Shown here: one piece after another, positions 6,851 to 32,569 of the stretch | Layout: each line of letters starts with the position of its first letter | How positions within the stretch are numbered: position 1 is the first letter of the stretch | Source: a virus | Length of the DNA stretch: 40,824 nucleotides | Direction: 5' to 3' (one strand) | Virus record (IMG/VR): IMGVR_UViG_3300017530_000141 | Location: 1 to 40,824 of that record | Made by a program: the position numbers and the translations under genes | Notes under the pieces: generated by a model | Told to the model about the DNA's origin: nothing | The model's database searches: none | The model's input: only the letters and a program-made list of their open reading frames with translations

Positions 6851-7978
6851 CTAAGTCGCAATCGCCCCCAGCGTTCGGCGCTCTGCACGCGCCGTCCGGA
6901 CGAGCCCTTCCTGATATGCCCTGGTCAGCAAGCCAAGGATCCTCAATTTTTCCCTGGCCGTTTTTTCTTTGATCCCGGCTTCCTCGGCCATCTGATCCGT
7001 CGTCATACCGCGATCGAGGCGTTGAAGCCACCAGCCGCGATTACTGTGCGGAAGATGCTGTGAATGTTTCCGCGGCATGCCCAGCACGCTCCGCGCATAT
7101 AGCGAGACGAGCGAAGGCGTACAGCCGATCTCCGCTGCGGCCTCGGCGTAGCAGCCTCCGTGGCGATCGAGCAAGTCGCGCAGGTAGTCCGCGTCGTGCA
7201 GCTGTGGGTAGCTGCGGCCGCGACGTCTTTTTCTATCGACGGCATGCTCGAGGTCGAATTTCTTCACGTAATAACGGGTCGCATGCCGCTTGATCCCGGC
7301 CTCACGAGCACAAGCCGTGAGCGTCATCTTTCGGTCCTCGAGTCGGACCCGCCACCATTCGCGCCTGAAGTAGTGATGGCCGGACTTTATGTTTGCCAGG
7401 CCTAGCCGACTGAGAACCCGACGCACCTGAGTGCTCGATGTCTCGAGCTCGTGCGCGATCGTGCCGGGAGCTTCGCCGGCCGCATGCAACCGGCGGATCT
7501 CTCGTTCGAGCATCTGCGAGTCGCTGTACTTGTTTGATTTGAGCCCGTGCTTCTCAGCGAAGTATCGCACGTTCACCGGGTTACACCTGAGATCGGCGGC
7601 GATGGCTGCGAATGTCTTGCCGCGTCTGAGCTGGTCGTATAGCCAGTTCTTGTCACGCAAGACCTGCAGGCGGGTCCTGCCGTTCTGTGGCTGCGTAAAC
7701 TTCGTACGGCTCAGCCGGTCGCATTTCGGGCAAATCTGAAACCAGGCCCAGGGCGGTGGGGCCTCGAAGCCCTCGGGCGCGATGCGTTGCAGCTGAAAGA
7801 TGCGCAGGGCAAGGAGTTCGGTCCGCGTGAACATGTCCGGTCCGACCAGTTTACGAAGCGCGTCGACAAACCGGTTCGATGCTCCTTCTTCCGGGCCGTC
7901 CCATGCCTGATGCACCGCGGCCGCGATCGCCGCGGCGATCGGGATCTCCTCCGGATCGGACCAGCGTGGTGAAGGCAT
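6851..7978 (-). CDS. DNA-binding protein with five tandem helix-turn-helix units
   Basis: This is a 375-residue protein. Residues 1-80 are helical, with a short CPKC pair at 83-86. Then come five units, each of about 35 residues and spaced about 50 apart, that share a helix, a xxxIAxEx turn and a recognition-like helix ending GL. They lie near 112-146 (YDQLRRGKTFAAIAADLRC), 157-194 (PGTIAHELETSSTQVRRVLS), 208-243 (MTLTACAREAGIKRHATRYY), 264-300 (CYAEAAAEIGCTPSLVSLYA) and 316-351 (MTTDQMAEEAGIKEKTAREK). Many Arg and Lys lie between units. No nuclease or recombinase residues are seen. The ATG follows the previous stop directly. Its position near the end of the early unit, just before the terminator, suggests a late-gene regulator or a DNA-organising factor. 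That is inference. Confidence 0.85.
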   Translation of the reverse strand: MPSPRWSDPEEIPIAAAIAAAVHQAWDGPEEGASNRFVDALRKLVGPDMFTRTELLALRIFQLQRIAPEGFEAPPPWAWFQICPKCDRLSRTKFTQPQNGRTRLQVLRDKNWLYDQLRRGKTFAAIAADLRCNPVNVRYFAEKHGLKSNKYSDSQMLEREIRRLHAAGEAPGTIAHELETSSTQVRRVLSRLGLANIKSGHHYFRREWWRVRLEDRKMTLTACAREAGIKRHATRYYVKKFDLEHAVDRKRRRGRSYPQLHDADYLRDLLDRHGGCYAEAAAEIGCTPSLVSLYARSVLGMPRKHSQHLPHSNRGWWLQRLDRGMTTDQMAEEAGIKEKTAREKLRILGLLTRAYQEGLVRTARAERRTLGAIAT

Positions 7979-9167: not shown

Positions 9168-9449
9168 TCATCCTGCGCTGTCTTCCCCGTAAGGATCGTC
9201 GAGGTCCGGAACTCGAGCCTCGCCTCCGATTCGATCGAGCCATTCCTCCCGCGTCTCGTTCAGTCCTCGATTGTAAGTGCGTGGCCGCTCGTTCTCTTTG
9301 AGGTAGTCTTTCGTGACAGTAATCTTGCCACAATTCCGACACACGAGCACTTGAAGGGCCGGAATGAAGCCACGAGGCCGAGTTTTCAGTCTCGCCGCGC
9401 TGCCGCACTTCGGACAGTAGTAGATCAAGATTTCCTCTCGCTGCTTCAT
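9168..9449 (-). CDS. Zinc-ribbon protein
   Basis: This is a 93-residue protein, MKQREEILIYYCPKCGSAAR and onwards, with a four-Cys zinc ribbon: CPKCG at 12-16 and CRNCG at 37-41. The C-terminal half is charged (YLKENERPRTYNRGLNETRE) and ends acidic (DLDDPYGEDSAG). The ATG overlaps the stop of the ATPase gene upstream (ATGA), so it is made together with the ATPase. It may be an accessory DNA- or protein-binding factor. The partner is unknown. Confidence 0.75.
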   Translation of the reverse strand: MKQREEILIYYCPKCGSAARLKTRPRGFIPALQVLVCRNCGKITVTKDYLKENERPRTYNRGLNETREEWLDRIGGEARVPDLDDPYGEDSAG

Positions 9450-11203
9450 TCGAGAAACAGAACGGGCAGCGCGCTCACGCGCCCCGGCGTAAGGTAATCG
9501 ATGAACCCGAGCGATCTGAGCGCGCCGAGATTATTCGTATAGCCGCTCGAGGTCGGCGACTGCTCGGCCCGCTCCGCGAGCTCGTCCTTACCGAGATCGT
9601 CCGGATAGACGTCGATCAACGCGCGAAGGATCCGTGCGCGACGCGCCGGCAAGCGCGCGAACAGGGCATCGTGCAGCTCCGCAGTCGTGAGCGCCGCCGC
9701 CGGCGCCTCGGCGAGCGATCGGCCGTCGTCCGTCAAGCAGACGTGCCCGGGCGCGGGATAAGTGATCAGTCCGTCCGATCGCAGGCGTCCCAGATTGTTC
9801 GTGTAGCCGGAGCTCGTGGGGCTCTGCTCGGCCAGCAGCGCGAGTTGCGTCTTCTGGGCGCGCTCGACGCGTACGCTCTCGAGCCAGGCCAGGGCATTGA
9901 GGATCCGCTGCATGGGATTCGAGATCTCGACAGCGAGGTCGAGGTCGGCGGTCCTGCCCGGCGTCTTACTCGGTTTAGGCTTCGGAGTCGCTACGGGCGG
10001 CCGGACTCTGGGAGCGGGCTCGCGGCCGTTGCCGGAGGCACTACGGATCGCCTCGACGAGCTCCTGACCGAAGCCCAACGCCTGGCCACCGACGTCGGCC
10101 AATCGCTCGCCCACGGAGGCGAAGCGACTGGCGACCGTCTCGAGCCGCTTGATCTGCGCGTCTTTGATCACGGCGACCTCGACGCGCTCGATCTCGACCT
10201 TCGGTTCCGGCGTCCTCGTCTTCGACTTCTTCGTGAGCTCGCGTTCGAGCTCGAGGATCCGCCGGCGAAGCAGCTTCGGATCCTCCGCCTTCGCGCGCGC
10301 GATCGCGGAGTCGAGATGCTTGCGGAGCCGGTCGAGGTCGACCGCCGCAAGCTTCCTGGGCGCGCGGGCCTTCTTCTTCGCTCCGACCTTAGGAGTAGCC
10401 GAGGAGTCGTACGTATCGCGCTCGCGGACCTTGACCTTGCGGAAGAGGTCCAGCCAGCCCGGCCTCCAGAACCAGGCAGTCCCGACGGGCAGGGAAGGGA
10501 GCGAGCTCATGAGCTCTTCGCGCTTCTCCGGCGTGCCGTGGACTTTCACCCAGGCGTCGATCGCCGCACGGTCTTGGGGCGCGATGGTCCGGAGCGTGAT
10601 GAGGACCTCGCACTGGGTGAGGACGTCCTTGTTGAGTACCGCCGCGCGCTGAGTGACGAGCGTAAGTCCCAGGCCCCGGGCCCGGCCGCGCCGGACGAGG
10701 TCCTCGACGGCGCCGAGCATCCTGGGCGTCTGCTGCCCCATCGGCTTTTGCGGCGCGAACATGTCCGCTTCATCGAGCACGATGTGCAGCGGCTCGCGGT
10801 TCCGGTGATATGGCCGCTCGGCGAAGGCCGTCATGAAACGGACCTGCTCCGCCTTCCGGAAAGCTGAGAGGTCGAGCACGACGGACAGCCGTTCGTCGAC
10901 CACCAGATCGGCGATGGTCTCGCCGGCGCCCGGCTCGAGCGGCAGATCTCCGTGCTCGCCGCCCAGGACGATGATCGGAAGCCCCTCGGACTTCCCATCG
11001 GCCGCCGCTCGAAGACCCCAGCAGACCCCGACTGGATCAACGACGACCACGGCTTGGTCCGCTTTCAGGAGTTCCTCGACGACCACGAGGGCCAAATAGG
11101 TCTTCCCGACGCCCCGCTTTGCGATGATCGCGAATGTCTGCGTGACCGCCTCGAGTGGCAGCGCGAGCTTCGGTCCGATCTTCAGTCGGCCCTCCCGAGC
11201 CAT
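9446..11203 (-). CDS. HerA/FtsK-type ATPase with two C-terminal winged helices
   Basis: This is a P-loop DNA translocase or helicase of about 585 residues. An N-terminal RecA-like domain carries Walker A AKRGVGKTYLA near residues 28-38, Walker B LHIVLDEADMFAPQ near 139-152, and a TLVTQRAAVLNKD segment near 181-193, all typical of the DUF87/HerA family. A charged coiled region follows (300-420). Two winged-helix units then share the identical 15 residues AEQSPTSSGYTNNLG. The product may unwind or pump phage DNA in replication or recombination. It starts at the ATG at 11201-11203, overlapping the previous stop (TGATG); a GTG at 11206 is equally possible. It is longer than a minimal HerA ATPase because of the C-terminal DNA-binding part. 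Confidence 0.85.
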   Translation of the reverse strand: MAREGRLKIGPKLALPLEAVTQTFAIIAKRGVGKTYLALVVVEELLKADQAVVVVDPVGVCWGLRAAADGKSEGLPIIVLGGEHGDLPLEPGAGETIADLVVDERLSVVLDLSAFRKAEQVRFMTAFAERPYHRNREPLHIVLDEADMFAPQKPMGQQTPRMLGAVEDLVRRGRARGLGLTLVTQRAAVLNKDVLTQCEVLITLRTIAPQDRAAIDAWVKVHGTPEKREELMSSLPSLPVGTAWFWRPGWLDLFRKVKVRERDTYDSSATPKVGAKKKARAPRKLAAVDLDRLRKHLDSAIARAKAEDPKLLRRRILELERELTKKSKTRTPEPKVEIERVEVAVIKDAQIKRLETVASRFASVGERLADVGGQALGFGQELVEAIRSASGNGREPAPRVRPPVATPKPKPSKTPGRTADLDLAVEISNPMQRILNALAWLESVRVERAQKTQLALLAEQSPTSSGYTNNLGRLRSDGLITYPAPGHVCLTDDGRSLAEAPAAALTTAELHDALFARLPARRARILRALIDVYPDDLGKDELAERAEQSPTSSGYTNNLGALRSLGFIDYLTPGRVSALPVLFLE

Positions 11204-11856
11204 CACGATGAGGCCCCGCTAAGATCCAGCTCGAGCTGCTTGAGCTGGTGGCCGAACAGCATGAGGTCCATCTTCCAGAGACCGTAACGGCCAACGATTT
11301 CGGAGAACTCTTCGACATCATGATGGCGCATCTTCCAGGCGCCGCTGTCGAGGTCCTGGTCACAGTGGCACAGCTCGTGGTCCGCGATCGCGACGCGCTG
11401 CATCGCCGTAAGCTTCTCCCAGGCCTTCCAGTTGAAGAGGATCACGAAATCGGAGTTCGCGAGGAAGGCGAGCTTCGCGTCGCACTTGGATGCCTTCGCC
11501 AGGCGGACGCGACCGGCGCCGCGGATTTGGAGCTCCTGCTTCCAGAGATAGCTGATCCTCGCGTTCGTGAGGTGCGGGTGATACTTCGGGATGAGCAAGT
11601 CTGCGAGCGCCCCGGGGATGCCGGCCCTAACGTACTTCTCACCGTCGGGCCAGGTTGCCGGGTGCGGCGCTTTCATGGCCTTCTCGAAGTCGGGGAGTGC
11701 GCCATCCACGAACTTCTGCATCCATTCGCTCATCTGCTCTTCCACGCGATCCCGGTCCTCTTCGGTATTGAAAGCCATCGGCGGGCCATCCGCGATCTGA
11801 ATGGTAGCGGTCACCTCATCACCGTTCTGTGTCCGTCCCGATTCTGATTTCTTCAT
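11203..11856 (-). CDS. Putative phage metallopeptidase
   Basis: This is a 217-residue protein with a zincin-type HExxH motif, DHELCHCD (His 160, Glu 161, His 164), in a helix following QRVAIADHELCH. A possible third ligand lies in the HHDVEEFSEIVGRYG segment. The pattern, including NARISYLWKQELQIRGAGRV and ILFNWKAWEKLT, matches the group annotated as putative phage metallopeptidase domain proteins. The first 60 residues are acidic and probably flexible. The ATG at 11854-11856 overlaps the previous stop (ATGA); an ATG at 11877 would add seven residues. It lies between a small membrane protein and the HerA-like ATPase. The substrate is unknown, and a host target or a DNA-binding role is possible. 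Confidence 0.8.
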   Translation of the reverse strand: MKKSESGRTQNGDEVTATIQIADGPPMAFNTEEDRDRVEEQMSEWMQKFVDGALPDFEKAMKAPHPATWPDGEKYVRAGIPGALADLLIPKYHPHLTNARISYLWKQELQIRGAGRVRLAKASKCDAKLAFLANSDFVILFNWKAWEKLTAMQRVAIADHELCHCDQDLDSGAWKMRHHDVEEFSEIVGRYGLWKMDLMLFGHQLKQLELDLSGASS

Positions 11857-12086
11857 TGCGCTGTCTTTCTTTTCCATTGTCCGCTCAGGTCCTCGCTCAC
11901 ATCGCCGTACTCTTTGAGCGCGCGAGCCAGGAGCTCGAGCTCCCAGGCCGTGAGCGAGTCGATGCAGACGACCGGGGTGGGGAAGGGCCTGGCGATCTCG
12001 CGCTCTGCCCTCCGATAGCCGACGGCCACGCCGATGAGAAAGCCGCCGACGAAAATCAGTAGAGCGAGGATGAGGCGCGGATTCAC
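11853..12086 (-). CDS. Small membrane-anchored protein
   Basis: This is a 77-residue protein with one N-terminal membrane segment (LILALLIFVGGFLIGVAVGY, residues 5-24) followed by a basic RRAER stop and a soluble helical tail (AWELELLARALKEYGDVSED). It starts with GTG overlapping the preceding stop (GTGA) and ends with ATGA into the metallopeptidase gene. The topology suggests anchoring to the inner face of the membrane. No family is recognised; it is not in the lysis cluster. Confidence 0.7.
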   Translation of the reverse strand: MNPRLILALLIFVGGFLIGVAVGYRRAEREIARPFPTPVVCIDSLTAWELELLARALKEYGDVSEDLSGQWKRKTAQ

Positions 12087-12223
12087 GCGAGCCGCTCCTC
12101 ACCCACTGATTCACCGAACCGGGCGGGGCCTGACTCTCGCCACCTCACGTGCCACAATAGCCCCAACACGACAGCCAGAACCCCTAGCCCGGCCAACAAC
12201 CCGAGGGCGCGATGCGTCTTCAC
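12083..12223 (-). CDS. Very small membrane protein
   Basis: This is a 46-residue protein starting with GTG at 12221-12223 (VKTHRALGLLAGLGVLAVVL). One membrane segment (ALGLLAGLGVLAVVLGLLW) is followed by an Arg-rich tail. The start is set by the GTGA overlap with the stop of the replication-initiator-like gene, and the end by a GTGA overlap with the next membrane protein. The frame remains open upstream, but that part overlaps the replication gene. The function is unknown. Confidence 0.6.
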   Translation of the reverse strand: MKTHRALGLLAGLGVLAVVLGLLWHVRWRESGPARFGESVGEERLA

Positions 12224-13131
12224 AAGAGCCGCCCCTGGCGTTCGCTGAAGCGGGTACTGGGAACCGGGTACCCGATGGCTGATCCCCGCGACCAGTCGCG
12301 TTCGCCACGGCCTTCTCGCTCGAAGACGTGCTTCACGAACGTATCCACCTCCTTGTTCCACTTCTGGAGTATCTGCGAGACGCGCTCCTCTCGGGTTGTC
12401 TGCATACCACCTTCACGCCAGAGCACGACGGTGCGAGGATGCTGGTCGCGCTCGGTGTAGACGTCGATGAGGAGACCGCTGGGTAGTCGCAGGCGAACCG
12501 CTCCGGCGCTCCTGGCTGCGAGCTCCCACATCTCGAGCCCGAGCAGTTCGAGCTTCTTCCCGCCCCAGCGTAGCTCGGGTAGATCCGGAGCTCGGGCATC
12601 GTGGCCCGCACCTGGAGTGGGGTCAGTGGAGTTTTCCACAGGCTCCGGATCTCTAGATTCTTCTTCTTTGGCCTTAAAGGCCTTATATACGCCTTGCTCT
12701 GTCACAGCTGTGACAGGGTTTTCTCGCACAGCTGTGACAGGGTTTCCGTCTTGCGTGACAGGGTTTGCATCCCCGGTCTCGGAGTTTTCCACAGCCGGCT
12801 CATTATTCTCTGTCAGATTGAGAGTGTTTGAGCTTACGAACTGAGAGATCCCCTTCACGTTCAGGGACCACGTCGTCGACCGGCCGCGACCGCCACCGTG
12901 CGAGGCGCGCTGGATGAGGTTCAGCTCGACGAGCTTGCTGAGACGTCGGTAGGCCGTGCTCTCGCTGCAGTTCGCGGCTTTCGCGAGCCGGTCCGTGCCC
13001 GGGAAGGCGCCCGCACCCCACTCCGGCGCGTGCGCGTCGATGCAGAAGAGGATGCACTTCGACTCCGCATCGAGCGGCGACTGAAGGATCGCCCGCCTGA
13101 GACTCCAGGATCGTTCTAGCGGATCAGGCAT
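12220..13131 (-). CDS. Replication-initiator-like winged-helix protein
   Basis: This is a 303-residue protein. The N-terminal ~95 residues form a winged helix (SKCILFCIDAHAPEWGAGAF, GTDRLAKAANCSESTAYRRL, KLVELNLIQRASHGGGRGRS) like those of phage replication proteins of the lambda O and DnaD-related groups. A low-complexity hinge at about 100-170 has threefold ENPVTAV-type repeats and two VENS motifs. The C-terminal part (about 175-303) is mixed alpha/beta with a helical TREERVSQILQKWNKEVDTF tail that could recruit a helicase loader. The hinge is encoded by repeats that look like replication iterons (12632-12793). The ATG at 13129-13131 is chosen over a GTG at 13146. No primase or helicase motif is present. 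Confidence 0.75.
   Translation of the reverse strand: MPDPLERSWSLRRAILQSPLDAESKCILFCIDAHAPEWGAGAFPGTDRLAKAANCSESTAYRRLSKLVELNLIQRASHGGGRGRSTTWSLNVKGISQFVSSNTLNLTENNEPAVENSETGDANPVTQDGNPVTAVRENPVTAVTEQGVYKAFKAKEEESRDPEPVENSTDPTPGAGHDARAPDLPELRWGGKKLELLGLEMWELAARSAGAVRLRLPSGLLIDVYTERDQHPRTVVLWREGGMQTTREERVSQILQKWNKEVDTFVKHVFEREGRGERDWSRGSAIGYPVPSTRFSERQGRLL
12632..12793. other. Candidate intragenic replication origin (iterons and DnaA-like boxes)
   Basis: Inside the initiator-like gene are three direct repeats of GTGACAGGGTTT: 12710-12721, 12734-12745 and 12755-12766, spaced 24 and 21 bases. Two of them lie in the palindromes GTCACAGCTGTGAC (12701-12714) and CACAGCTGTG (12727-12736). The cluster is flanked by two copies of GGAGTTTTCCACAG, each containing TTTTCCACA (12632-12640 and 12785-12793), which fits the relaxed DnaA-box consensus TTWTNCACA. 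Beside them is an AT-richer stretch with the palindrome GGCCTTAAAGGCC (12671-12683) and TTATATA. The layout parallels the lambda origin, which lies within the O gene. Confidence 0.65.
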
Positions 13132-13200
13132 CGGCGGGCCACACACCCATCATCAACCACCCTGGTGCCCTGTTTGCAGACGTATGCAGTCCGAGTGTGA

Positions 13201-13833
13201 TCAGCTTCGGTTGCACCATTCCGTCACGACCTCCTCCCTTGCATCGTCGAAGGCGAGAGCCAGATCGTCGCGAACATCGTCCGCACTGATATAGCCATCC
13301 AAATCGATCTCCAACATGACCGTACACAAACTTTCCTCTGAGCAGACCTGGCAGTAATAGCGCATGTTGCCGTCTTGTTCGATCCGCTCGAGTGTGACGG
13401 CGACGTGCTCGTCTTTGGCAGATTTCACGATCCGCCGGCGAGATGGTGTCAGGCGCACGTGCGCGGACGAGTCGTCACGGAAGAAGCCGGCCCTCGTGCG
13501 GACGGCTTTCTTGTTCCCGGGTGCCGGCGGGACGGAGAGTTTCCGAACGACGCCGTGCTTGTTGGGCGCGACCCACTGATCCTTCAACAGATCGATGATG
13601 AGCTTGCGCCGTGCGTCCAGGTTGTCCGGGTCTTCCGGGCGTACGACGTGGAAGACGACCGAGAGCCGAGTCAATGGCCAGGGCTTCTCCGGAGGGCGCA
13701 CGCCCTGGCGAATCATCTCGATCTCGGCGTGACGTTCCCAGTGTTTCTGCGGCAGGTATTGCTTCCGCGTGTGTCCGCGGAAGTTCCCGCGCGAGGGCGG
13801 GAGGGGAAGCCGGAACTCGACGCGCTCAGCCAT
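13201..13833 (-). CDS. RusA-like Holliday junction resolvase with C-terminal extension
   Basis: This is a 210-residue protein. The N-terminal 130 residues fit RusA: FRLPLPPSRGNFRGHTRKQY, a strand LTRLSVVFHVVRPE, then DPDNLDARRKLIIDLL, with Asp 68, Asp 70, Asn 71 and Lys 77 matching the catalytic DxDN...K pattern, then WVAPNKHGVVRKL. RusA cuts four-way DNA junctions, which helps resolve recombination and replication intermediates before packaging. Residues about 130-210 are an extra domain with a CQVCSEESLC cluster and an acidic DLDGYISADDVRDDLALAFD segment, not usual for RusA. The ATG at 13831-13833 has GGGAGG eleven bases upstream; a GTG at 13845 is less likely. Confidence 0.75.
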   Translation of the reverse strand: MAERVEFRLPLPPSRGNFRGHTRKQYLPQKHWERHAEIEMIRQGVRPPEKPWPLTRLSVVFHVVRPEDPDNLDARRKLIIDLLKDQWVAPNKHGVVRKLSVPPAPGNKKAVRTRAGFFRDDSSAHVRLTPSRRRIVKSAKDEHVAVTLERIEQDGNMRYYCQVCSEESLCTVMLEIDLDGYISADDVRDDLALAFDDAREEVVTEWCNRS

Positions 13834-14260
13834 TGATGCGGACACCTCCCGGGATCTCGTACAGGTGCATCGTCGTCGGGGTCGGGTGCCGGTCCACGTA
13901 GTCTTTTTTGGGCGGCAGGATCATCGCCATGTAGATGTCGTCGGGCAGCAGTTCGTAGCGCGCATCGCGGATCTCCTTCCACGTCGGGATCCGGCCCACT
14001 ATGGGCCCGCCGTCCGGGCCGACCAGGTCCGTCCGAACGTGGGCGGCGATCGAGAGGTGCCAGCCCGCGTTCGCGCTACGGCCGACGATGACTTGCAACG
14101 CCGTCCTGTCCCTATCGTCGAGCCGGCGGACGAAACAACGCGCGTCAGGCTCGAGCCGCGAGAGCACGCGGGGTGGGATAGGCACCTGCCGCCATTTGCC
14201 GCGCTTTAATGCAGGCATCATTCTTCGATTAGTTTCTCCAGGAAGCTTCGCGGAGCTCAT
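13826..14260 (-). CDS. DUF7694-like conserved phage protein
   Basis: This is a 144-residue protein. The C-terminal part has the pattern WHLSIAAHVRTDL, then RIPTWKEIRDARYELLPDDI, then MAMILPPKKDYVDRHP and HLYEI, which I recognise as a common uncharacterised domain of phages and phage-like elements (annotated DUF7694). It probably has a single alpha/beta domain. The ATG overlaps the previous stop (ATGA), and the 3' end overlaps the resolvase start by eight bases. No enzymatic motif is visible. Confidence 0.75.
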   Translation of the reverse strand: MSSAKLPGETNRRMMPALKRGKWRQVPIPPRVLSRLEPDARCFVRRLDDRDRTALQVIVGRSANAGWHLSIAAHVRTDLVGPDGGPIVGRIPTWKEIRDARYELLPDDIYMAMILPPKKDYVDRHPTPTTMHLYEIPGGVRING

Positions 14261-14505
14261 GGACTCACGCCCTCCGCCTCACGTTTGCCGCTCTCGGTGA
14301 GCATGAAATGCCGGAATCCGTAATCATCAGCCTTCGTGACAGCTTCAACGAGACCCTGCTCGAGGAGGATTCGCATCGTCTGCCCGGCCACTTTTGACCA
14401 GCCGGGTATTATGTAGGCCGACGACCCTCCGTCCCACTGGATGGAGTAGCGTTCGTGATACCGGAGATGTACGATCACGTGGCGCTGCGCGGTGCTGAGC
14501 CTCAT
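14257..14505 (-). CDS. Small winged-helix-like protein
   Basis: This is an 82-residue protein, MRLSTAQRHVIVHLRYHERY and onwards. An N-terminal helix, two short strands (YSIQWDGGSSAYIIPG), a helix (TMRILLEQGLVEAVTK) and a hairpin ending HFMLTESGKREA resemble a small winged helix, where L-x-E-x-GK-x-A is a common C-terminal pattern. It may bind DNA as a regulator. ATGA overlaps exist at both ends. Confidence 0.65.
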   Translation of the reverse strand: MRLSTAQRHVIVHLRYHERYSIQWDGGSSAYIIPGWSKVAGQTMRILLEQGLVEAVTKADDYGFRHFMLTESGKREAEGVSP

Positions 14506-17526: not shown

Positions 17527-18147
17527 TCACTGGAACGACCTCTGCGCTGTTCGGAGACCGTAGCCAATTACGATGGCGCCGGCCGTGTACGCAGCCTTCT
17601 TCCAGAATGGCGGATTGGCTTTGCGATAGAGCTCGCGCGCCTCTTTCATCAATAGACCGTTTTGAATGCGGAACTCGGCAATCGTCGAATCCTGGCTAGC
17701 TATTATCGAATGGGCGAAGACGAGCGAGCGCCTGAGCGTATCCGCCTCGGCGATCGCCAGAGCGGTCTGATCCGATTGGATAGCCAGTCGCTCTTCGTTG
17801 GCCCCCTGGAGCCGCGCCAGCAGCTCGAGCCCGGTCGTATCACGCTCGAGGTAGATGGCCAGATTCTCGGCCGCGTCATCCCGCCGGCGCTCGACTTCGA
17901 CGGTCCGAACGACGACACGTTGCCGGGCGTCGCGCAGGCTGTCAGCGATAGATCTTGCTGTTGACAGGCTGTCGGACCAGATCGCCTCGCGGGATGCCCG
18001 GGCCTCGTGCAGCAGGGCGATCGAGTCATTGGCGGCCTCGAGCTCTCTGAAGTGGTCGCGTTCTCCCAGCCGGAGGCGGACGTCGTCGACCGCGAGCGCG
18101 ATGATCGCGAGGGCCAGGATCCACTTGAGCGCCTCGATGAATTTCAT
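17527..18147 (-). CDS. Spanin-like membrane/coiled-coil protein
   Basis: This is a 206-residue protein directly after the endolysin gene (TAATG overlap). An N-terminal membrane segment (ALKWILALAIIALAV, residues 6-20) is followed by about 150 residues of heptad-like coiled coil rich in Glu, Arg, Ser and Asp (ARSIADSLRDARQRVVVRTV). A second hydrophobic segment lies near the C-terminus (AAYTAGAIVIGYGL). Inner-membrane spanins have the first membrane segment plus a periplasmic coiled coil, and this is the expected place in a lysis cassette. The second hydrophobic end is unusual and could touch the outer membrane. There is no lipobox or separate outer-membrane partner. It is the last gene before the late terminator. 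Confidence 0.6.
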   Translation of the reverse strand: MKFIEALKWILALAIIALAVDDVRLRLGERDHFRELEAANDSIALLHEARASREAIWSDSLSTARSIADSLRDARQRVVVRTVEVERRRDDAAENLAIYLERDTTGLELLARLQGANEERLAIQSDQTALAIAEADTLRRSLVFAHSIIASQDSTIAEFRIQNGLLMKEARELYRKANPPFWKKAAYTAGAIVIGYGLRTAQRSFQ

Positions 18148-19413: not shown

Positions 19414-19616
19414 TTTGCAGGCTGGCCTCCCCCGTTTCGATCGACCCAGGCCTTGCCGACGTTCGCGCCGCCGTAGAGCCCGAGCGTGAGCGCCAGTGCC
19501 GTCACATACTCCGCACCGCCGAGTTTACTCAGGAGCATCCCTAACGTCGCGCCCGCCCAACAGACCAGGGCCACAATGAACTTCCGCTGCCGCTGGATTG
19601 ATTTACCGTTCGTCAT
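19410..19616 (-). CDS. Small two-membrane-segment protein (holin candidate)
   Basis: This is a 68-residue protein, MTNGKSIQRQRKFIVALVCW and onwards. It has two membrane segments (FIVALVCWAGATLGMLLS and YVTALALTLGLYGGANVG), a positively charged N-terminus and a charged C-terminus (KAWVDRNGGGQPAK), which fits class II holins. The ATG at 19614-19616 has GAGG six bases upstream and overlaps the 3' end of the phosphatase gene. The frame open to 19961 lies within that other gene and is not used. Confidence 0.65.
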   Translation of the reverse strand: MTNGKSIQRQRKFIVALVCWAGATLGMLLSKLGGAEYVTALALTLGLYGGANVGKAWVDRNGGGQPAK

Positions 19617-20121
19617 TTGCCACCTCACAGAGATCGACACCGAGCGCCTTAGATCTGGCGCAACCGTCTCCAGGCAACTCGAACCTCTTCCACGGCCACC
19701 AGCTATTCCAAGGGCTTTCGCGCAGGTTCTTGAGAAAGCCGGGGTTCCAGAGTGAATATTCGCGCGTCGTAGCTGGCCCGTATTCCTGCACTTGCCTGAT
19801 GGCCGTCTCAACCGGATGACCGCGAACCATGAGAATGAGGGCCGCTGCGAGACCGCTACGATTCTCACCCGCTCTGCAAACCGTGAGGACGCGGAAGCAG
19901 GCAAGTCCATTAGCGATCGCCCACAAAAGCTCAAGCGTGTCAGTGGGCAGCCCTTGGGCATCGTCTGCTATTAGTGTGCACACAGTCGGAACCGGGAAGT
20001 CGACAGGGACAAGCGACCAAACGACCTCGATGCTCTCCGCCACCAGCATCTGGGCCGTTATCGCACTGGCCGGTCCCTGGTATAGGTCGTCGAGTATCCG
20101 GCACATGCCTACGCTAGACAT
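19603..20121 (-). CDS. Dual-specificity/tyrosine-type phosphatase
   Basis: This is a 172-residue protein with the Cys-x5-Arg phosphatase loop, TVCRAGENRSGLAAALILMV (Cys 82, Arg 88), followed by a helix, as in dual-specificity phosphatases. The usual His before the Cys is Val here. An IADDAQGLP segment (Asp 53/54) is placed like the general-acid loop, and the N-terminus (MCRILDDLYQGPASAITAQM) resembles the start of small DSP-like folds. A strong site, AAGGAGCAAT, precedes the ATG at 20119-20121. The gene overlaps the sulfotransferase upstream by eight bases and the holin gene downstream. It could remove phosphate from a host protein, nucleotide or PAP by-product; the substrate is unknown. Confidence 0.75.
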   Translation of the reverse strand: MSSVGMCRILDDLYQGPASAITAQMLVAESIEVVWSLVPVDFPVPTVCTLIADDAQGLPTDTLELLWAIANGLACFRVLTVCRAGENRSGLAAALILMVRGHPVETAIRQVQEYGPATTREYSLWNPGFLKNLRESPWNSWWPWKRFELPGDGCARSKALGVDLCEVANDER

Positions 20122-20632
20122 ATTGCTCCTTCAACGCCGGCCTGAGTTCTTGTTCCAACTCGTCCTCGGTCCAGCGACGGTTGAAATTCAGCCGATGGTA
20201 GTTCAGAAACGGCAACCAATATTCCAGCAATCGCCGCCGCTCACGTATCTGGCCCTCGCTGTCAGGCCGCCAGCGATTGAGTGCGCTCGTCACGCAGTCC
20301 TCCACATCCCTGTCACACCAGATCAATCGGCTGTCGGGTAGCAGAGTGAGGATTATCGGCAGCACGTGCGCGATGCGCGGCGCCTTGAAGCCCCACGGTT
20401 CGGTCTTGCCGGCTACGTGGGCACTGAACGCATCCAGGAACTCATGGAAACTGATCTGCCGCCGTTCGAAGCGGAACGCCAGCGTGTGAATCGTGTTCTC
20501 CTCCCAACTACCCAGCGGGCAAGCTGCCGATACTACGGCGCGCCCACCCATGTCTATCCCGAACCGCTCCTCCAATACCTTCGCCGTGATCGAGCTGCCA
20601 CAGCGCCCAGTGCCCAAAACGATTACCGGCAC
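20114..20632 (-). CDS. Sulfotransferase-family protein
   Basis: This is a 172-residue protein with both PAPS-binding signatures of sulfotransferases. One is a P-loop-like 5'-phosphosulfate site, IVLGTGRCGSSITAKVLEER (residues 4-23). The other is a 3'-phosphate site, LIWCDRDVEDCVTSALNRW (residues 103-121, with Arg 108 and Ser 116). WGFKAPRIAHVLP at 80-92 fits the usual strand between them. It is shorter than many cellular sulfotransferases. It starts with GTG at 20630-20632 after GAGGGC. It is coupled to a phosphatase gene and lies between tail-fibre and lysis genes. It may sulfate a surface sugar, lipid or protein; the acceptor cannot be told. A kinase-like P-loop role is less likely because of the paired motifs. 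Confidence 0.75.
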   Translation of the reverse strand: MPVIVLGTGRCGSSITAKVLEERFGIDMGGRAVVSAACPLGSWEENTIHTLAFRFERRQISFHEFLDAFSAHVAGKTEPWGFKAPRIAHVLPIILTLLPDSRLIWCDRDVEDCVTSALNRWRPDSEGQIRERRRLLEYWLPFLNYHRLNFNRRWTEDELEQELRPALKEQYV

Positions 20633-32037: not shown

Positions 32038-32274
32038 CTAGATCACCCTCGCCTTGCCCCGGGCGACGAGTTCCACAGCGACCGAGCGGGATACTTTGGC
32101 TGTCTTCTTCTCTCGATTATCGAGGTACTCGATCCGCACCTCATGGGGGTCGCGATCCGTCGTGGCCGCATCAACCTCCGGACCGGCGATCTCCTCAGCC
32201 CATACCGCGGCCTCCTCGAGCTCAGTCTTGAGCTCATGCTTATCCTTTTTCGTTGTCATCATTCCGATCGTCAT
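32038..32274 (-). CDS. Small protein paralogous to its upstream neighbour
   Basis: This is a protein of up to 78 residues (alternative ATGs at 32262 and 32259). The segment AVWAEEIAGPEVDAATTD, then HEVRIEYLDNREKKTAK, and a final LVARGKARVI match the neighbour at 32240-32569 (MAEEIAGPEIDAAAVA, DEVWIEYCDGRREKTSK, LVVRGKAKVI), so the two arose by duplication. It overlaps that gene by 35 bases in another frame, at a run AAAAAGG. Given the position between the major tail protein and the tape measure, both are candidate tail-assembly chaperone parts. Confidence 0.65.
   Translation of the reverse strand: MTIGMMTTKKDKHELKTELEEAAVWAEEIAGPEVDAATTDRDPHEVRIEYLDNREKKTAKVSRSVAVELVARGKARVI
32240..32251 (-). 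other. Possible programmed frameshift site
   Basis: On the minus strand the 109-residue frame ends AAC GAA AAA GGA TAA. Slipping +1 from AAA onto AAG, or -2 back onto AAA, enters the frame of the downstream paralogue (AAG GAT AAG CAT). Slippery runs just before a stop are used by many phages to make a fused tail chaperone. Confidence 0.3.
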
Positions 32275-32569
32275 CCTGCTCGCGTTGGTGGATCACTTTT
32301 GCTTTGCCGCGAACGACCAGCCGCTTGGCGAGCTGCTTTGACGTCTTCTCACGCCGCCCATCGCAATACTCAATCCAGACCTCGTCGGGGCCGGACGCGA
32401 CCGCGGCCGCGTCTATTTCCGGACCGGCGATCTCCTCGGCCATGTCCCTGGTCTCTTCGATCTCGGCCTTGGGTTCATCTTTGTCCGGACCGGCGATCTC
32501 CTCCGCAGTCTCCGCCGCATCCTCGATCTGCTCCTTGATCGTCTCCTCCTCGGGAGTTCTCTTAGCCAT
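32240..32569 (-). CDS. Small acidic protein with AEEIAGP repeats, chaperone position
   Basis: This is a 109-residue acidic protein, MAKRTPEEETIKEQIEDAAE and onwards. AEEIAGP occurs twice (residues about 22-28 and 44-50) and once more in the downstream paralogue. The DNA keeps the 20-mer TCCGGACCGGCGATCTCCTC exactly at 32177-32196, 32418-32437 and 32484-32503. The C-terminal 45 residues hold a small beta domain (DEVWIEYCDGRREKTSKQ, then LVVRGKAKVI). The GGGAGTAAACG site precedes the ATG at 32567-32569. It follows the major tail protein gene and is likely a chaperone or scaffold for the tail. Confidence 0.65.
   Translation of the reverse strand: MAKRTPEEETIKEQIEDAAETAEEIAGPDKDEPKAEIEETRDMAEEIAGPEIDAAAVASGPDEVWIEYCDGRREKTSKQLAKRLVVRGKAKVIHQREQDDDRNDDNEKG

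Follow-up and report, generated by a model that had tools for sequence, protein, structure and literature searches.

A probable replication origin in the linker-encoding region of an uncultivated phage's winged-helix initiator gene

The segment at positions 12628–12794 of the phage genome analyzed here is very likely its replication origin, located inside the linker-coding part of the phage's own initiator gene. It consists of three iterons, an AT-richer stretch, and two flanking copies of TTTTCCACA, and it encodes linker residues 113–168 of the initiator. This layout is already known from lambda O/ori and SPP1 gp38/oriL, and the phage is very probably a further example of it, not a new design.

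The window is the whole stretch of DNA that was analyzed, a single IMG/VR virus record of 40,824 bp with 63% GC. Because it carries a 55-bp direct terminal repeat, the genome looks complete. Almost all of its genes are encoded on the minus strand, and they include a tailed-phage set (capsid, S49 protease, portal, terminase, tape measure, and endolysin). The first-pass annotation described a phage with no polymerase or primase of its own. This agrees with our scan of 34 proteins, in which no helicase loader, replisome helicase, primase, or polymerase was recognized; small divergent ones could escape such a scan. A GC-skew minimum anticipated near 12.7 kb was absent. The skew was monotonic and tracked the coding strand, and its detrended form had a minimum at 9268 and a maximum at 18120. 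Since nearly all genes are on one strand, GC skew is not diagnostic here, and it was dropped as evidence for or against an origin.

Several other genes of the window have features of their own. The minus-strand gene at 9446–11206 encodes a HerA-like ATPase in which a C-terminal segment, AEQSPTSSGYTNNLGxLRSxG, is duplicated; a homologue in the spring-water phage MW202482 is 43% identical and shows the same duplication. MW202482, which has the nearest HerA-like ATPase, was considered as a test case and set aside, as the genes read contained neither an iteron-like cluster nor a recognizable winged-helix initiator. At 19603–20632 (minus strand), a dual-specificity-phosphatase-like protein (phrog_10650, CRAGENRSG loop) adjoins a sulfotransferase-like gene. 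Two small neighboring reading frames at 32038–32569 (minus strand) have repeated EEIAGP motifs in common, with 12-mers occurring three times at the DNA level. The minus-strand gene at 6851–7978 encodes 375 residues with several helix-turn-helix matches, resembling a D5-like regulator and HNH-associated DNA-binding PHROGs.

The initiator gene occupies 12220–13131 on the minus strand and encodes 303 residues. The protein contains a Pfam HTH_36 domain (2.6e-7) and hits PHROG replication-initiation families, the best being phrog_1032 (5.2e-9), with the O-like phrog_678 at 4.7e-7; it belongs among phage initiator families with a winged helix. In the AlphaFold2 model, a winged helix (helix-helix-helix-helix-strand-strand) extends to about residue 92, and residues 104–209 had no confident structure. 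The first-pass annotation had placed the repeats in the hinge-coding part of a winged-helix gene, and their position in the middle of this linker, which is predicted to be disordered, fits that description. The mean pLDDT was 46.8, and we make no claim on the C-terminal fold, since confidence was good in the winged helix alone. Structure comparison matched many winged helices, including the DnaD N-domain, and did not single out one function. Directly upstream, at 13201–13845 on the minus strand, is a gene weakly matching RusA-like Holliday junction resolvases (phrog_34, E 4e-5); the RusA–initiator order is the same in the Arthrobacter phages Galaxy and KHumphrey. No close homologues of the initiator, portal, or HerA proteins were found in viral_contigs, nor was a close homologue found with DatBoi as the query. 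Neither of the alignments A1 and A2 was conserved enough in any stretch to be used for scanning.

The iterons are defined by GTGACAGGGTTT, which occurs exactly at 12710, 12734, and 12755 (span 12710–12766) with spacings of 24 and 21 nt. The three direct repeats noticed at first reading are thus exact, and no further copy exists in the whole genome, even when one mismatch is allowed. Only one further 10-mer in the genome, a GC-rich simple word, is present three times within 200 bp, and no other iteron-like cluster was found in the genome. All three iterons lie on the minus strand. Iteron 1 (12755–12766) is AAACCCTGTCAC on the coding strand and constitutes a single half-site. Iteron 2 (12727–12745, AAACCCTGTCACAGCTGTG) is partly palindromic, including the CACAGCTGTG palindrome. 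Iteron 3 (12699–12721, AAACCCTGTCACAGCTGTGACAG) includes a full 18-bp palindrome, CTGTCACAGCTGTGACAG (12699–12716), and only one other perfect palindrome of the window ranks with it as the longest. CACAGCTGTG is found at 12703–12712 and 12727–12736. Of the two nested palindromes reported earlier, both are present, but the larger one had been understated; it extends to the 18 bp given above.

The AT-richer stretch (12649–12690), a candidate unwinding element, is on the C-terminal-coding side of the iterons, where such an element would be expected. The AT-richer palindrome said to lie alongside the repeats is indeed there (GGCCTTAAAGGCC, 12670–12682), and the stretch beside iteron 3 is real. Its segment 12649–12678 has 33% GC over 30 bp versus 63% for the genome; about nine other places are equally AT-rich. 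On the plus strand, GGAGTTTTCCACAG occurs exactly at 12628–12641 and again at 12781–12794, as the earlier reading of two flanking copies had it. Its core TTTTCCACA is present only in these two copies in the genome, with about 0.1 expected from base composition.

The flanking copies raise the question of whether host DnaA binds the TTTTCCACA pair and takes part in origin function, either along with the phage initiator or instead of it. We regard this as possible but less likely than not. TTTTCCACA has been proven to act as a DnaA box in cyanobacteria (PMC4674748) and differs by one base from TTATCCACA, and its two copies, which are the sole ones in the genome, bracket the iteron array. TTWTCCACA boxes also occur in the same gene of Whytu (two boxes) and RcKemmy (one), but these two are the only ones among 31 other initiator genes. 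Both TTTTCCACA copies include CTGTG, as the iterons do, and they may be weak initiator sites. The pair may represent either DnaA boxes or extra, weak half-sites of the initiator. A DnaA role would supplement the initiator-bound origin and not exclude it.

The repeats are more than the protein needs. On the coding strand, they read AAC CCT GTC ACx GCT GTG, encoding N P V T A V, and nearly every copy uses rare codons (CCT, ACA, and GCT account for 9%, 10%, and 9% of the codons for their amino acids in this phage). Synonymous codons were permuted within the gene with the protein held fixed. Among 5000 such shuffles, a 12-mer appeared three times within 60 nt in 3, and a palindrome of at least 18 bp was formed in 111; the triple 12-mer and such a palindrome never occurred together. 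In a separate test, the best direct repeat of 19 nt exceeded all 200 shuffles, whose maximum was 15. All repeat copies are in frame, and tandem duplication of a peptide could have contributed to them.

Weak tblastn matches and their families supplied related initiators from phages that infect many different hosts. Lambda O was included as the positive control, and the shuffle test detected the annotated lambda iterons. A direct repeat beat codon shuffling (p about 0.01 or less) in 14 of 22 initiator genes, counting the window and lambda O. With identical settings, one of 89 control genes from the same loci beat the shuffles, and none reached the score of 19 obtained for the window. In a wider set, 37 of 54 initiator genes beat the shuffles, with all 37 repeats at residues 80–190; repeat distances were counted from 10 nt in this set and from 12 nt in the 22-gene and 89-control tests, and the latter two form the only strictly comparable pair. 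The 54 genes include related groups (L024–L043 and L049–L053), three genes that scored through near-simple repeats (L062, L063, and L069), and two short reading frames (L066 and L067). Repeat sequences vary among phages (e.g., GGGGTGCAACGGTTGCACC and GGGGTCAGAATGTGACCCC), and many are inverted repeats. Significant linker repeats were absent from the initiators of Bacillus EZ-2018a, KellEzio, and L065 in the 54-gene survey. The linker-repeat design is common, not universal.

The sole control with a shuffle-resistant repeat was the frame just upstream of the KellEzio initiator (L019:1585-2349), and the KellEzio origin may lie in this frame. The Arthrobacter phage initiators have a second DNA element 3' of the iterons, composed of four GAACC units 10–13 bp apart (L003:2380-2420, L008:2368-2410, and L049–L053 at gene positions of about 400–435). 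Because the units are read in all three frames, they are conserved as DNA and not as peptide. Similar GAACC clusters were seen in Vibrio, Klebsiella, Salmonella, and Bordetella phages; the GAACC array of the relatives is not present in the window.

The metagenomic C72C1 relatives (L018 and L024–L043) have a common C-terminal domain, whereas their DNA-binding domains differ. Between L018 and L026, identity is 13% over residues 1–85 and 97% over the C-terminal domain; their iterons are unrelated, being TGACACAGTTGTGACAGGGGGTAC at 24-bp spacing in L018 and of the ACCGTTGACGGAAAA type at 15-bp spacing in L026. L024 and L032 are 27% identical in the first 85 residues and 94% identical in the C-terminal domain. 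The 15-bp repeats are weaker in L031 and L032 (p 0.02 and 0.14). In both the L018/L026 and L024/L032 pairs, the iterons switch along with the DNA-binding domain. Most simply, these sequences can be read to mean that the DNA-binding domain has its sites in the repeats, which move together with it.

The window is linked to this group through its iteron core CACAGCTGTGACAGGG (16 bp, in iteron 3), which is letter-identical in the iterons of L024 and L025. When 244 other window segments were compared with these linkers, none shared a 16-mer and three reached 15; other words of at least 14 in common occurred at only three other places. The domain–iteron co-swaps and this core support an initiator-bound, lambda-like origin. 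That reading, proposed at the outset, is well supported, by inference, through the initiator family match, the disordered linker, the repeats of the relatives, and the swaps. A composite design, in which two DnaA boxes bracket the iterons and the initiator and host DnaA together license replication, is conceivable, as is a wider picture in which winged-helix phage initiators move as cassettes of a DNA-binding domain and its coding-embedded iterons, attached to interchangeable C-terminal domains; we consider this reading less likely than not.

The same data bear on a different explanation, according to which the repeats reflect a recently duplicated NPVTAV peptide in a flexible linker, their DNA identity stemming from the duplication with no binding role. 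The spacings of 24 and 21 nt do preserve the frame, and linkers tolerate repeats. Duplication of a peptide would not, however, call for the 18-bp palindrome, and rare codons recur in nearly every copy. Other phages have different repeat sequences at the same place, where the lambda iterons are proven binding sites (PMC7466680), and the iterons switch with the DNA-binding domain. We therefore consider this explanation very unlikely. It is highly improbable that the protein binds the repeats as operators in autoregulation or copy-number control, with the origin elsewhere: the winged helix is regulator-like and binding by itself is no proof of an origin, but the sites are some 350–430 bp into the gene, no sigma-70-like promoter was detected within 12000–14300, and the genome offers no second iteron-like cluster.

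The origin reading can be placed among known systems. Lambda O/ori likewise has an N-terminal DNA-binding domain and inverted-repeat iterons in its own linker-coding part, followed by an AT-rich stretch (PMC7466680), and the O-like PHROG match adds to the likeness. The window differs from lambda in its iteron sequence, in having three iterons instead of four, in a milder AT-richness, in its two DnaA-box-like flanks, and in that no P-like loader was recognized among the 34 proteins. It is not classed as lambda O/ori proper, given that these proteins included no recognized loader partner and that the AT-richness of the candidate unwinding element is equaled elsewhere in the genome. SPP1 gp38/oriL likewise places direct repeats inside the gene encoding its origin-binding protein, together with an AT-rich unwinding element (PMC6316719), but SPP1 encodes its own loader (gp39) and helicase (gp40) and has another origin as well; no counterpart of these was recognized in the window.

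Among the relatives, the C72C1-type initiators (L018, L024, and L025) combine a winged helix with linker iterons as the window does, and L024 and L025 have the 16-bp core in common with it. They differ by a protein identity of about 21%, an unrelated C-terminal domain, and extra GTGACAC-type repeats. The initiator of Galaxy is the best weak match among the phage records (E 2e-3). Galaxy and KHumphrey resemble the window in the RusA gene directly upstream and in their linker repeats, but their repeat core is GGGGTGAACG, and they have a second array (11-bp GAACCGTCC) that is absent from the window.

For the initiator-bound origin, we infer from the parallels with lambda O (PMC7466680) and SPP1 gp38 (PMC6316719) that the protein binds and unwinds the DNA and that helicase, primase, and polymerase are recruited from the host. 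The winged-helix domain of the 303-residue protein would bind the three iterons, AAACCCTGTCAC(AGCTGTG), probably in dimeric form where these are palindromic. The nucleoprotein array would strain and open the neighboring AT-richer stretch, and the remainder of the protein would bring in the host replicative helicase and replisome.

The sequence by itself was enough to propose an origin that can be tested in a phage that has not been cultivated. The findings also provide a simple origin-finding test, namely the search for shuffle-resistant repeats where winged-helix initiators have their disordered linker. The joint swaps of domains and iterons in the metagenomic relatives supply evidence from nature that such repeats serve as binding sites for the protein encoded by the same gene, and they suggest how phages may change origin specificity yet keep the remainder of the initiator.
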